Source: an uncultured Aquiluna sp. (GTDB lineage Bacteria > Actinomycetota > Actinomycetes > Actinomycetales > Microbacteriaceae). Taken from it: a stretch of 47,498 nucleotides of DNA. This document shows, piece by piece, positions 19,583 to 23,050 of this stretch (its first letter is position 1; the number at the start of each line of letters is the position of its first letter). Location of the stretch: assembly GCA_905182225.1 (NCBI GenBank), contig CAJJAJ010000006.1, positions 1 through 47,498 on the forward strand, written 5' to 3'. The position numbers and the translations under genes are program-made. Below the pieces are notes generated by a model. That model worked only from the letters and a program-made list of their open reading frames with translations. It was not told the origin of the DNA and did not search any database.

Positions 19583-20419
19583 CTAAACCTCAATCGGCCC
19601 AACGCCGAGCATAAGCAATATTGCGTTCACCAAACATGCAACGACCAGCAGTGGAAAGATCGCGCGAGGTGGTGTTGGCCTGAGACTTAACACGGACGCA
19701 ATGCCAGCCAACACAATAGTCGCCGTCAAACCAATTACACCTATGAGGCCTGCCAAGCTGTTGCTCTGATAAACAGCAATGCTGGAGGCAAGAATTGCCG
19801 TAGTAGAAATGACAAGTGCCGAGATTTTCTGACCAACAATGTGAGGAAGCGCTTTAACCCCGGTCGCTCTATCCTCAAGAAGATCGGGCAAAGTATTCGC
19901 AAAGTGCGCGGAGACTCCCAGCAGAGCTGCAACAACCACAACCCATGCGGGTGGGACCTGGCTCTGCTCAAGGCTCAATGTCACAAAGACCGGCAAAATA
20001 CCGAACCCAATTGCATAGGGTAGAACTGAGAACGCAGTTGCTTTAAGGCCAAGGTTGTAGGCCCAACCTGCAACGAGCATGAAAACCATCCATCCAAGAC
20101 TCTCCCAGCCGAGCAAACCTGAGATGACGAGCGCCAAAATACCCGCAGCAAAAGAAGAGTTCCGAACAAGCGAAGCGAGTAGTGAGCCCTGTGCTAATGG
20201 CTTATCGGTGCGTCCGGCTGCGCGATCTCGCTTGTGGTCCAGCCAGTCGTTTGATAACCCCACCGAGAACTGCTGCAACAAAACCGCGAGCCCTACCAAC
20301 GCAACTCTTCCCGCGTCCAGGCCGATACCAACCGCAAATAGCGTGGCGAAGAGCGCCACTGCAAGCGAGGGCATTGGGTGGGTAGATTTGAAGAGAAAAC
20401 TAAGTTTGCTTGCAAACAT
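19583..20419 (-). CDS. UbiA-family membrane prenyltransferase
   Basis: Polytopic enzyme that attaches a polyprenyl chain to an aromatic (or related) acceptor. Its 278 residues hold the first Asp-rich motif NDWLDHKRD (Asn57, Asp58, Asp61, Asp65) and the second DLLED (Asp179, Asp183), both needed for magnesium-diphosphate binding, with about eight hydrophobic segments. ATG 20419 begins two bases after the FAD gene's stop; a longer frame from 20461 would start inside that gene. As the last gene of the T3PKS operon, its acceptor is plausibly the polyketide ring. The sequence does not show whether it overlaps in function with MenA. Confidence 0.88.
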   Translation of the reverse strand: MFASKLSFLFKSTHPMPSLAVALFATLFAVGIGLDAGRVALVGLAVLLQQFSVGLSNDWLDHKRDRAAGRTDKPLAQGSLLASLVRNSSFAAGILALVISGLLGWESLGWMVFMLVAGWAYNLGLKATAFSVLPYAIGFGILPVFVTLSLEQSQVPPAWVVVVAALLGVSAHFANTLPDLLEDRATGVKALPHIVGQKISALVISTTAILASSIAVYQSNSLAGLIGVIGLTATIVLAGIASVLSLRPTPPRAIFPLLVVACLVNAILLMLGVGPIEV

Positions 20420-20421
20420 GG

Positions 20422-21465
20422 TTAGCGCGCCAAGCGATTGACGACCAAACCAAAGACCCAAGGAAGCCTGCTTGCCAGAGGCACAATGGCCATTCTGACC
20501 GGGGAATTCGCCGCTGAAATAAGGCCTTGAGTCAGAACCCTAAAGTCTCTGCTCACTCGGCGCCAAGCTTTTTCATAACTTGCTGGCTTGTCTCTCAAAA
20601 TGCAATCAATCGCCACTCTTGCTTGAGCGAAACCAAGCCTCAAGCCTTCACCAGTAATTGCATCCACATATCCGGAGGCGTCACCAACCAACAGAATGCG
20701 ACCCTTGGTGCGTGCAGTGGTTAGCTGAGGAAATGAACCCGCTCCACTTCGCTGCGATGCCGGAGAGGCACCCCTTAGCCTTCCTGCAAGTTCTGGGATG
20801 CTAGCTATGGTTTCATCAAAGTCGGTTGACTTCGGTCCTAGGACTGCAACGCCCACTTGATCTTCGGATACTGGAGTTATGTAGACCTCAGCGGTCTTGG
20901 TGTAAAAGACCTCAATGAATTCGGACCAAGGCGCAACTTGGAAATGCTGCCTTATTCCAAAGCGTTTAGATCGCTTTGGAGACAGCGCCTTCACTAATCC
21001 AGCAGCTTTAGCAATACTCGAATGCAAGCCGTCGGCGGCGATTAGGTAACGGCCTTGGATGTTCTGACCACTTGAGCACGAGGCAACCAAACCACTTTCG
21101 GATTCCGTGACGTAGCTCACGGATGCCTCGACAAAAACTACACCAAGTTCATCTGAGCGCGACCTAAGGCTTCCGTGAAGCTCCGTGCGCCTAACGCCTT
21201 TTCCTACACCACTCGAAAATCGATGAGATACTGCATGCCCGCCACTTCGATATGTGACTCCGGCAAGATCACGCCCCTTGGGAAACACACCCAACCTAGC
21301 TAAAAGCGGAATTGCACCGGGCATTAGGCCCTCACCACAAGCCTTGTCAATTACTCCAGTGCGCGGTTCGACAACCACAGCTGATAGGCCGCTCAAACGG
21401 GCCTCAATGGCCGATGCCATGCCCACCGGGCCTCCCCCGACGACTATTACGTCGTAGTCGTTCAT
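20422..21465 (-). CDS. FAD-dependent oxidoreductase (SrsC / geranylgeranyl-reductase-like)
   Basis: 347 residues with an N-terminal dinucleotide fold (VVGGGPVG, 8-15), a CGEGLMPGA segment at about 43-51, DGLHS, and the FAD-ribityl motif LLVGDASGYVDAITGEG near residue 265. This is the p-hydroxybenzoate-hydroxylase/geranylgeranyl-reductase superfamily. In type III PKS operons such flavoproteins (SrsC in Streptomyces griseus) hydroxylate the alkylresorcinol ring towards a quinone, so ring oxidation is the favoured role; reduction of prenyl double bonds is the main alternative. The ATG overlaps the methyltransferase stop (ATGA). Confidence 0.85.
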   Translation of the reverse strand: MNDYDVIVVGGGPVGMASAIEARLSGLSAVVVEPRTGVIDKACGEGLMPGAIPLLARLGVFPKGRDLAGVTYRSGGHAVSHRFSSGVGKGVRRTELHGSLRSRSDELGVVFVEASVSYVTESESGLVASCSSGQNIQGRYLIAADGLHSSIAKAAGLVKALSPKRSKRFGIRQHFQVAPWSEFIEVFYTKTAEVYITPVSEDQVGVAVLGPKSTDFDETIASIPELAGRLRGASPASQRSGAGSFPQLTTARTKGRILLVGDASGYVDAITGEGLRLGFAQARVAIDCILRDKPASYEKAWRRVSRDFRVLTQGLISAANSPVRMAIVPLASRLPWVFGLVVNRLAR

Positions 21466-21998
21466 CTCAAGCCCTTCAAAGCCTTGTTTTCGGTCGGAAT
21501 CCTAAAGCCCAGGAGTAATGCAGCATTGAGTGCAGTGAAGATGGTGGCAGTTATCCAAGCGGAGTGAACCATAGGCAAGGCGATGCCCTCAATTGCTACG
21601 ACCCAATAGTTGGGGTGACGAAGCCAAGGCAGCGAATATGGACCTTTTCTCACAAGCTGCGCGCCTGGAATCACGATCACCCTGGTATTCCACTGGGACC
21701 CAAGTGCCCAAATAAACCAATATCTTGCCGATTGACATCCGATGGCAATGGCAAGGAATATCCAGCCCGGAGAACCAAGAAATTGGCGGTCAAAAAAAAC
21801 AACTTCGATTATGGCTCCCGCCAGTAACCCGGTGTGCAGGGCAATCATGAAGGGCAAATGACCGTGGCCATATTCGATACCGCCGGATTTGAACGCTAGT
21901 TTCGCATTTCTAGTCGAAACAACAAGTTCGTAAATCCGCTCTGCACCCGTGGCCAAAATAAGACCGATGAATAGCATCACACTGACAGTCAAGATCAT
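21462..21998 (-). CDS. isoprenylcysteine carboxyl methyltransferase-like membrane methyltransferase (SrsB-like)
   Basis: 178-residue integral membrane protein with about four to five hydrophobic helices. The ICMT-family C-terminal signature is present: LRHPNYWVVAIEGIALP and, near the end, FRIPTENKAL. In Streptomyces the homologous SrsB methylates alkylresorcinols made by a neighbouring type III PKS, the likely role here. ATG 21998 overlaps the PKS stop as ATGA and is preceded by GGAG; a GTG at 22004 is the alternative. Second gene of the operon. Confidence 0.85.
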   Translation of the reverse strand: MILTVSVMLFIGLILATGAERIYELVVSTRNAKLAFKSGGIEYGHGHLPFMIALHTGLLAGAIIEVVFFDRQFLGSPGWIFLAIAIGCQSARYWFIWALGSQWNTRVIVIPGAQLVRKGPYSLPWLRHPNYWVVAIEGIALPMVHSAWITATIFTALNAALLLGFRIPTENKALKGLR

Positions 21999-23050
21999 TT
22001 CCACTCCAACAAGACAAGCTCAAGAGAGACTCCGGGACCAACTGCAAATAGCACACCAATTGTCGCCGAAGGCTGCTCAGAAAGATCGTTCAAGACATGA
22101 AGAACCGCGGCTGAGGACATATTTCCAGCTCTGGACATAACATCCCAGCTAGCGGACAGGTCCGAGTCAGTTAGATCAAGCGATGAGGCAAATGCCTCGA
22201 GGATTTTCGGACCCCCCGGATGCGCTATCCATACATCAATGTCTTCACGAGAGAGCCCTTGTTGACTCAGGAGCACATCTACCTCAGCTGCGAAGTTTTC
22301 AATTATCATCTCGGGCACGCCTGCCTCAAGCATCAGCGAAAGCCCGCTGCCGCCCACTTTCCAGCCAATGAGAGATTCAGTATCCGAGTACAAAGTGCTT
22401 CTGGTGGCCTTTACATCAATTCCATTAAGAGCCTTAGGGTGTTGACGGCCCACCATGACGACGGCAGCTGCGCCGTCACCAAAAATTCCCGTGCCAACGT
22501 AGTTGGCCATCGATCGATCCTCCCACTGGATAGTCAATGAACATAGCTCAACGGAAACGACCAGCGCCACAGCTTTGGGGTCACCTATAAGATAATCCGC
22601 GACACGTGCTATTCCGGCAGCACCCCCAGCACAACCAAGGCCAAAGCTTGGGATTCTTTTAAGGTCTGACCGGAATCCCATTCGAGCGGCAAGCAATACA
22701 TCCAGTGCTGGAGCGCCGACCCCCGTTACCGTAGTGAAGAAAAGATGATCAACTTCATCGGCATTTAGCCCAGTTTCTTCAAGCGCTCTTCTGGTGCAGT
22801 CCTCCACCAGCGAGAGTGCGTGTTGCGCAAAAAGTGTATTCGCCCTCGTGAACGAATCAATGTCTGTGTATTCCGAAATAGGTAAAACGAAGTGACGCTG
22901 TTCGATCTTGGAATTGCTGTGAAGCCGCTCTAAGACAGCTCTAGTTCCGTCCGTCGGTGCGAGCCTGGGTGCCAAAGCCGCGGTTACCTCAGATTGAGAA
23001 TGAACATGCTCAGGCAGGGAGGTTTTGACCTGAATGATCACTGCCGACAT
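21995..23050 (-). CDS. type III polyketide synthase (chalcone/stilbene synthase family)
   Basis: Iteratively condenses an acyl-CoA starter with malonyl-CoA and cyclises the product, typically to alkylpyrones or alkylresorcinols in bacteria. The 351 residues have the Cys-His-Asn triad: Cys140 in FGLGCAGGAAG, His277 in IAHPGGPKIL and Asn310 in SRAGNMSSA. The C-terminal GVLFAVGPGVSLELVLL is the family GFGPG-type loop. It fits bacterial PhlD/SrsA-like enzymes better than RppA, but chain length and cyclisation cannot be read from sequence. A GGGAG lies 8 bases before the ATG. It leads a four-gene operon of overlapping genes. Confidence 0.93.
   Translation of the reverse strand: MSAVIIQVKTSLPEHVHSQSEVTAALAPRLAPTDGTRAVLERLHSNSKIEQRHFVLPISEYTDIDSFTRANTLFAQHALSLVEDCTRRALEETGLNADEVDHLFFTTVTGVGAPALDVLLAARMGFRSDLKRIPSFGLGCAGGAAGIARVADYLIGDPKAVALVVSVELCSLTIQWEDRSMANYVGTGIFGDGAAAVVMVGRQHPKALNGIDVKATRSTLYSDTESLIGWKVGGSGLSLMLEAGVPEMIIENFAAEVDVLLSQQGLSREDIDVWIAHPGGPKILEAFASSLDLTDSDLSASWDVMSRAGNMSSAAVLHVLNDLSEQPSATIGVLFAVGPGVSLELVLLEWK

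Follow-up and report, generated by a model that had tools for sequence, protein, structure and literature searches.

The closest described systems to the locus reported here are the srsABC and pkqABC gene trios, in which, according to the accessible portions of three papers (PMC9927152, PMC5916927, PMC6669644), a type III polyketide synthase (PKS) makes an alkylresorcinol, an ICMT-like enzyme O-methylates it, and a flavin adenine dinucleotide (FAD) enzyme oxidises the ring. The genes sco7669-7671 are treated as the operon in the accessible text of PMC4573997. The locus analysed here lies in a stretch of 47,498 nucleotides from an uncultured Aquiluna sp. (contig CAJJAJ010000006.1, positions 1 to 47,498; hereafter the window), where a type III PKS, an ICMT-like methyltransferase, an FAD enzyme and a UbiA-family prenyltransferase are encoded in this order as a tight operon on the reverse strand (19583-23050). 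The results assembled below suggest, with a probability of roughly 0.7, that the four genes constitute one membrane-lipid pathway in which UbiA would prenylate the ring derived from the PKS.

The operon begins with the PKS gene (21995..23050, 351 aa), which is SrsA/PkqA/Pks11-like and matches Chal_sti_synt_N/C. It is followed by the gene of an SrsB/PkqB-like membrane methyltransferase (21462..22004, 180 aa, GTG start; Pfam ICMT, 84 bits against a cut-off of 24), that of an SrsC/PkqC-like FAD-dependent oxidoreductase (20422..21465, 347 aa; FAD_binding_3, 60 bits against 22) and that of the membrane prenyltransferase (19583..20419, 278 aa; Pfam UbiA, 82.5 bits against 34.2), so that the Pfam matches of all four proteins exceed the curated cut-offs. 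The PKS and ICMT genes overlap by 10 nt and the ICMT and FAD genes by 4 nt (ATGA), while 2 nt separate the FAD gene from UbiA when the ATG at 20419 is taken as the start, a spacing found identically in the locus L043 of a congener (L numbers denote loci, G genomes and f families). The alternative UbiA start in the open reading frame listing is a TTG at 20461. A promoter and terminator scan gave scores no better than those of shuffled sequence. The same gene order was present in four congeners (L041-L044, with 68-94% PKS identity), in the Pontimonas-type loci L045 and L046, and in the Nanopelagicales-like loci L077 and L102. Within the genus, a trio-type PKS was detected in 5 of the 22 genomes, and all five, that of the window included, carried the complete four-gene operon. 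The original prediction of a four-gene operon with intact catalytic residues was thus confirmed by coordinates, Pfam matches and motif alignments, and the order that it proposed to look for in other Microbacteriaceae does recur, in congeners and in Pontimonas-type genomes.

Of the features that mark the srs/pkq type, a PKS with a Cys-His-Asn triad and, following it, ICMT-like and FAD genes were found in the window. Cys140, His277 and Asn310 of the PKS were invariant in the 12 aligned sequences, the window one included, and its closest solved structure was that of the mycobacterial Pks11 (E 2.7e-85). Trp230 was kept in at least 90% of the 12 aligned rows; it may be the equivalent of ArsB Trp281, a correspondence mapped through chalcone synthase numbering rather than by alignment with ArsB. 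A tryptophan at the ArsB-281 position is given as a marker of resorcinol-directed cyclisation in the accessible text of PMC9927152. The ICMT-like protein scored 23.3 bits with the isopcys_mtase equivalog model, short of its cut-off of 160, and the GxGxxG, DG and GD motifs of the FAD protein were invariant in 25 aligned rows. On the evidence of its sequences the window trio is of the known srsABC/pkqABC type leading from alkylresorcinol to alkylquinone, an assignment already made in the original prediction and now supported by gene order, Pfam matches and the relationship to Pks11.

The prenyltransferase, in turn, could be set apart from the other UbiA proteins of the organism, whose genome is a 1.09 Mb draft of 38 contigs with 90.7% completeness. 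The NDxxDxxxD and DxxxD motifs of the family were invariant in 90 aligned rows. The AlphaFold2 model of the window protein (mean predicted local distance difference test score, pLDDT, 94.6) showed the all-helical UbiA membrane fold, with 6m31, 4od4, 7bpu and 4tq3 as best matches; the matched structures are those of archaeal UbiA, and the template modelling score to 4od4 was 0.75. By sequence, phmmer of this protein against the PDB gave no match at E 1. Five UbiA-family matches were detected in the genome: CtaB (L001, 391.2 bits against a cut-off of 246), MenA (L002, 354.8 against 264), two carotenoid-type copies (L004 and L005, of which one is truncated where its contig stops) and the gene of the window operon. 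The two carotenoid-type copies matched models of the PRK13105/13595 type, and we take them to be CrtEb-like lycopene elongases. That the window gene is itself a menaquinone, heme or carotenoid enzyme sitting in the operon by chance might be suspected from the shared superfamily and from the presence of these two carotenoid-type paralogues in the genome. This is a very improbable reading, contradicted by the separate MenA, CtaB and CrtEb-like copies and by the model scores. The window UbiA reached 20.4 bits against a cut-off of 277 with the only MenA-type model that it matched, gave no match to the cyoE_ctaB model at E 0.001, had no PRK13105/13595-type model among its matches and scored only 32.1 bits against 205 with PRK12875. 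Conversely, the window-family UbiA profile, at E 1e-5, missed the CtaB, MenA and CrtEb-like copies of the genome.

Frames resembling MenB, MenD and MenE adjoin MenA; their best models are those families, with scores below the cut-offs, and two of the frames are cut by the ends of the examined stretch. The menaquinone genes that the original prediction advised looking for are hence represented, and, as far as this comparison was run, the MenA- or heme-type UbiA that it had named as the finding against itself did not appear at the operon, both enzymes being encoded separately elsewhere. The genome thus has menaquinone genes with a MenA of their own, and the window UbiA is an additional prenyltransferase. 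The genome also encodes two prenyl diphosphate synthases. Cytochrome bd subunit I was not found in the 90.7% complete draft and, taken together with the menaquinone genes, this gives no positive support to a replacement respiratory quinone.

The coupling of UbiA to the trio was then evaluated in species representatives, partly draft genomes, in which the PKS and UbiA were searched separately in the same samples and their positions compared afterwards. In the order sample of 327 genomes, 75 had the PKS, 82 had UbiA and 59 had both, 45 of these with the two genes at most 6 kb apart. The class sample of 296 genomes contained 102 with the PKS and 160 with UbiA; the best 131 of the latter were used, 29 with E above 2.2e-29 being dropped, and 79 genomes had both genes, 56 of them within 6 kb. 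Counting all 160 raised the genomes with both to 80 and left the 56 linked ones unchanged, the added genome (G810) carrying UbiA on a different contig from the PKS. When both samples were merged (7 linked genomes were common to them), 94 of 169 distinct trio-PKS genomes were linked, in 14 of 28 families, and linkage was complete or nearly so in several of these (f38 13/13, f35 11/11, f14 7/7, f18 14/15, f45 12/13). Additionally, a scan of named genomes, from which the best 80 loci were kept, showed UbiA in 34 of the 80 (at a distance of about 3.6 kb in L132), while 79 had ICMT and 72 had FAD. The UbiA-bearing loci include those of Streptomyces globisporus (L130), S. microflavus (L131) and S. 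anulatus (L136), and others from Cellulomonas, Oerskovia, Phycicoccus, Terrabacter, Kribbella, Streptosporangium and Saccharothrix.

The arrangement of the genes varied among these loci, where gene calling at high GC was crude (longest open reading frame, or GC content at third codon positions). In the clade of the window UbiA closes the operon, while outside the Microbacteriaceae UbiA and the PKS were most often divergent (68 of the 94 linked genomes; in 66 of the 68 the aligned regions stood 36-330 bp apart). Other placements were on the same strand upstream, or at the 3' end, where UbiA could lie on either strand. On a quick tree built from the concatenated trio of 71 loci, linkage must have changed 8 times or more and arrangement 12 times or more. 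Chance adjacency of the four genes can be dismissed on recurrent gene order, cross-family linkage, co-occurrence and repeated rearrangement. UbiA as a peculiarity of a small genome is likewise ruled out by its recurrence across the order and the class. The emphasis that the original prediction had placed on the small genome therefore has to be corrected, UbiA being a common fourth gene in Actinomycetia. The type of the trio and a UbiA tied to it by gene context are supported, and prenylation itself, a quinone or phenol product, an electron-carrier or antioxidant role and a starter from the FAS-II genes are predictions of that interpretation.

Within the Microbacteriaceae, UbiA of the same family (E at most 1e-30) was found in 99 of 104 genomes with the trio and in 56 of 195 without it; eight UbiA matches of this family set, between 1e-20 and 1e-30, were not scored as positive. 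Another type III PKS, defined as a PF02797 match over its cut-off that falls short of 1e-60 to the window PKS, was present in 51 of the 56 UbiA-positive genomes lacking the trio (one of them, G165, clearing the cut-off by just 0.8 bits), against 10 of 24 control genomes that had neither UbiA nor the trio. The other PKS lay at most 4 kb from UbiA in 37 of the 51. The second cluster is exemplified by L086:6723-9717, with a PKS, a class I S-adenosylmethionine methyltransferase, an FAD_binding_3 monooxygenase and a convergent UbiA. In eight sampled loci of this second type, from several families, the PKS was 26-33% identical to that of the window. Where examined, which among the 51 means in few loci, the UbiA family of the window partners two PKS/methyltransferase/flavoprotein sets whose methyltransferases are unrelated. 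This association with two distinct PKS sets is, in our view, the strongest single argument that UbiA acts on the PKS product.

Several points nevertheless weigh against a shared pathway. The Fisher p values for the co-occurrence of UbiA and the trio PKS (4e-31 in the order set, 5e-17 or 6e-10 in the class set with 131 or 160 UbiA genomes, and 2e-31 in the family set) come from tests that ignore shared ancestry. In 14 of the 28 families UbiA was unlinked: no linked genome was found in f22 (13 genomes), f8 (13), f36 (9), f27 (6), f16 (4), f43 (4) or eight more families of 1-3 genomes, and f15 was linked in only 1 of 8. UbiA was missing from 16 of 75 trio-PKS genomes in the order set and, in the class set of 102, from 22 or 23 according to whether weak UbiA matches are included; all 13 PKS genomes of the mycobacteria-like f22 were without a UbiA match. 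From a trio PKS very close to Pks11 we infer that f22 is mycobacterial; f37 is probably Streptomycetaceae and f51 probably Nanopelagicales, judging from trees and similarity. Most Microbacteriaceae UbiA genes lie far from the trio, and the 10 control genomes mentioned above have a type III PKS without a window-family UbiA. UbiA also occurred without any type III PKS in 5 of the 155 Microbacteriaceae UbiA genomes (G010, G095, G118, which is 66% complete, G303 and G309). In G303, a lone UbiA with intact aspartate motifs (L049:1898-2716) sits at the chromosomal place of the window operon, flanked by some of the window's neighbours but without the trio; the lone UbiA of G010 (L048:8804-9631) has intact aspartate motifs as well. 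Finally, a trio expressed elsewhere reportedly gave alkyl benzoquinones or pyrones, and a prenyl group goes unmentioned in the accessible part of that paper (PMC9927152).

These points could be accommodated if the trio alone made an unprenylated polyketide quinone and UbiA made a different prenylated molecule needed under the same conditions. The trio functions without UbiA in mycobacteria, as far as the accessible texts of PMC5916927 and PMC9927152 go, six f22 loci contained PKS, ICMT and FAD genes and no UbiA match, and a few genomes retain UbiA without any type III PKS. We consider this division of labour unlikely, however, because UbiA adjoins the trio in 14 families through several rearrangements, because the same UbiA family stands beside a second, distant PKS/methyltransferase/FAD set, and because the four genes were apparently transferred as a unit.

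The evidence for such a transfer came from two Pontimonas-type operons outside the family, one in a metagenome-assembled genome (MAG) of Candidatus Nanopelagicales (L102:5992-9414, on a 421 kb contig) and the other in G804 of family f51 (L077:2752-6174). Both the UbiA and the trio of these loci were nested in the Pontimonas-type clade in two separate trees; the UbiA tree was unrooted, as the intended outgroup paralogues had no profile match, and contained long branches for L092 and L093, and the trio tree was a quick one. The SmpB encoded upstream in L102 is closest to family f51, sharing 71-78% identity with its counterparts in nine f51 genomes as against 59-66% in nine Microbacteriaceae and 60-71% in five other genomes, and a DUF305-like neighbour, recognised by eye, is common to L102 and L077 and absent from L045 and L046. 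The four genes seem to have moved together between orders, as far as these trees and identities can tell; MAG contamination is a possible source of the operons in L102 and L077. A four-gene operon was also observed at L045:6944-10369 of the Pontimonas-type genome G050. The accessible text of the genome paper of Pontimonas salivibrio CL-TW6T states that the organism has no polyketide synthases. If G050 is P. salivibrio, the operon conflicts with this published statement about its streamlined genome.

In the reading that we prefer, with UbiA prenylating the PKS-derived ring, the PKS would add malonyl units to a fatty acyl starter and cyclise the chain to an alkylresorcinol, the mode of cyclisation being suggested by Trp230. 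By analogy with srsABC and pkqABC, the ICMT-like enzyme would O-methylate this alkylresorcinol and the FAD enzyme would oxidise the ring toward a quinone or quinol. UbiA would presumably take a prenyl diphosphate as donor and attach its chain to a free carbon or oxygen of the ring, so that the predicted product would be a phenol or quinone bearing one alkyl and one prenyl tail. Beneath this scheme lie the gene content, the catalytic residues and the coupling of UbiA to type III PKS, all of which were observed directly; the order of the steps, the place of the prenyl chain on the ring, its length and the function of the product are predictions.

Additional conserved genes were also sought beside the four. 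None recurred widely around the 56 linked loci: the neighbour clusters reached 12, 10 and then 5 or fewer loci. On visual inspection the first two look for the most part like reading-frame artefacts, and the third is a transporter. A fifth gene of the prenyl reductase family was nevertheless present in 6 of the 72 loci with UbiA and PKS matches, lying between the two in three of them. All six proteins exceeded the cut-off of GG-red-SF, the geranylgeranyl reductase family model, and one of them, compared with the PDB, gave a single match at E 1e-8, to an archaeal digeranylgeranylglycerophospholipid reductase. The presence of a prenyl reductase beside UbiA suggests that the product carries a polyprenyl chain.

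The same model raises the question of whether the FAD enzyme of the trio is itself a prenyl reductase rather than a ring hydroxylase, saturating the chain added by UbiA to give a phenol with an alkyl and a phytyl-like chain. GG-red-SF matched 25 of the 25 FAD rows and was the NCBIfam model that the window FAD protein matched best, and one prenyl reductase (3oz2) appeared in the PDB fold list of its model, at rank 18. The window protein, however, scored 101 bits, below the cut-off of 158.8, so that it does not classify as a geranylgeranyl reductase by this model, whereas the separate fifth gene lies above the cut-off in all six loci that have it. Moreover, the FAD gene is kept in the mycobacteria-like loci without UbiA, and the leading fold matches of its AlphaFold2 model (pLDDT 90.8) are mostly flavin halogenases and monooxygenases. 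A reductase role for the trio enzyme is therefore regarded as rather improbable, slightly more so than separate products of the trio and UbiA.

Other neighbours were observed at single loci or pairs of loci. Two additional genes, encoding an AMP-binding ligase and an SBF-family transporter, lie just upstream of the operon in L042 (4165-6899, identified by Pfam) and L043 (3974-6690, identified by eye). Two of the five congeneric genomes with the operon have this pair, which is absent from the recurrent neighbour clusters listed and could possibly supply the acyl-CoA starter. In G735 (L088:3650-5980), a lone window-family UbiA comes right after a Pyr_redox_2 protein resembling a type II NADH dehydrogenase, and a similar-looking frame was seen about 2.6 kb past the operon in L102 (at 12023). 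It is possible that these neighbours hint at quinone metabolism.

A wider picture may be sketched tentatively, although we would place it somewhat short of even odds. Two-tailed meroterpenoid quinones, with an alkyl and a prenyl chain, the latter hydrogenated in some lineages, might be a widespread and unrecognised class across Actinomycetia; the srs and pkq trios would then be the core parts of such pathways in many families, the mycobacteria would lack the prenyl step through loss or from the outset, and two distant PKS sets with unrelated methyltransferases would each be coupled to one UbiA family. Were UbiA indeed a regular fourth partner, the compound in which the pathway naturally ends in Streptomyces, Cellulomonas, their relatives and planktonic actinobacteria would probably have been missed, and its function too. 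The known versions of the srs/pkq pathway may accordingly include an unrecognised extra step, and the UbiA family of the window, so far unassigned, acquires a substrate hypothesis.

When compared with known systems, the order of PKS, ICMT-like and FAD genes in the window is that of srsABC of Streptomyces griseus and of sco7671-7669 of S. coelicolor, and the relative S. globisporus (L130) has a PKS, an ICMT-like and an FAD protein that are 47, 52 and 44% identical, respectively, to those of the window. In S. globisporus, S. anulatus and S. microflavus, which we take to represent the S. griseus clade, UbiA is divergent and stands beside the PKS. The accessible description of srsABC is that of a three-gene operon, whereas the window operon has UbiA as its fourth gene. 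The trio is equally that of the polyketide quinone cluster pkqABC (pks10) of Mycobacterium smegmatis, whose PKS, according to the available part of its description, has a Trp at the resorcinol-directing position, but 13 of 13 f22 PKS genomes differ from the window in having no UbiA match.

Four further systems resemble the window in part, as far as the accessible portions of their reports extend. The T3PKS locus of Gephyromycinifex aptenodytis resembles the window in grouping UbiA with PKS, ICMT and FAD genes, but it places UbiA at the opposite end, without a prenylated product being proposed in that text (PMC8779670). In the losA locus of Micromonospora endolithica the surroundings of a type III PKS include a UbiA and also a methyltransferase, but the PKS alone was activated and the reported products are alkylresorcinols without a prenyl chain (PMC7587189). 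A hierridin-like cluster of Raphidiopsis mediterranea combines a type III PKS with a prenyltransferase, and its authors suggest a prenylated compound; this is, however, a single cyanobacterial case in which the type of prenyltransferase is left unstated in the text available (PMC8086630). EboC/Ubi-297 is, like the window protein, an unassigned bacterial UbiA-like prenyltransferase in a conserved cluster, but that cluster is eboA-E, its acceptors are quinoline acids and a type III PKS goes unmentioned in the accessible text (PMC9235831). In the literature surveyed, which left Funabashi 2008 and Anand 2015 outside its scope, neither prenylation for the actinobacterial trio nor UbiA as its regular partner was proposed. 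The trio of the window is a known one; the fourth member of the operon, predicted to prenylate, seems conserved across many families and seems to have been overlooked.

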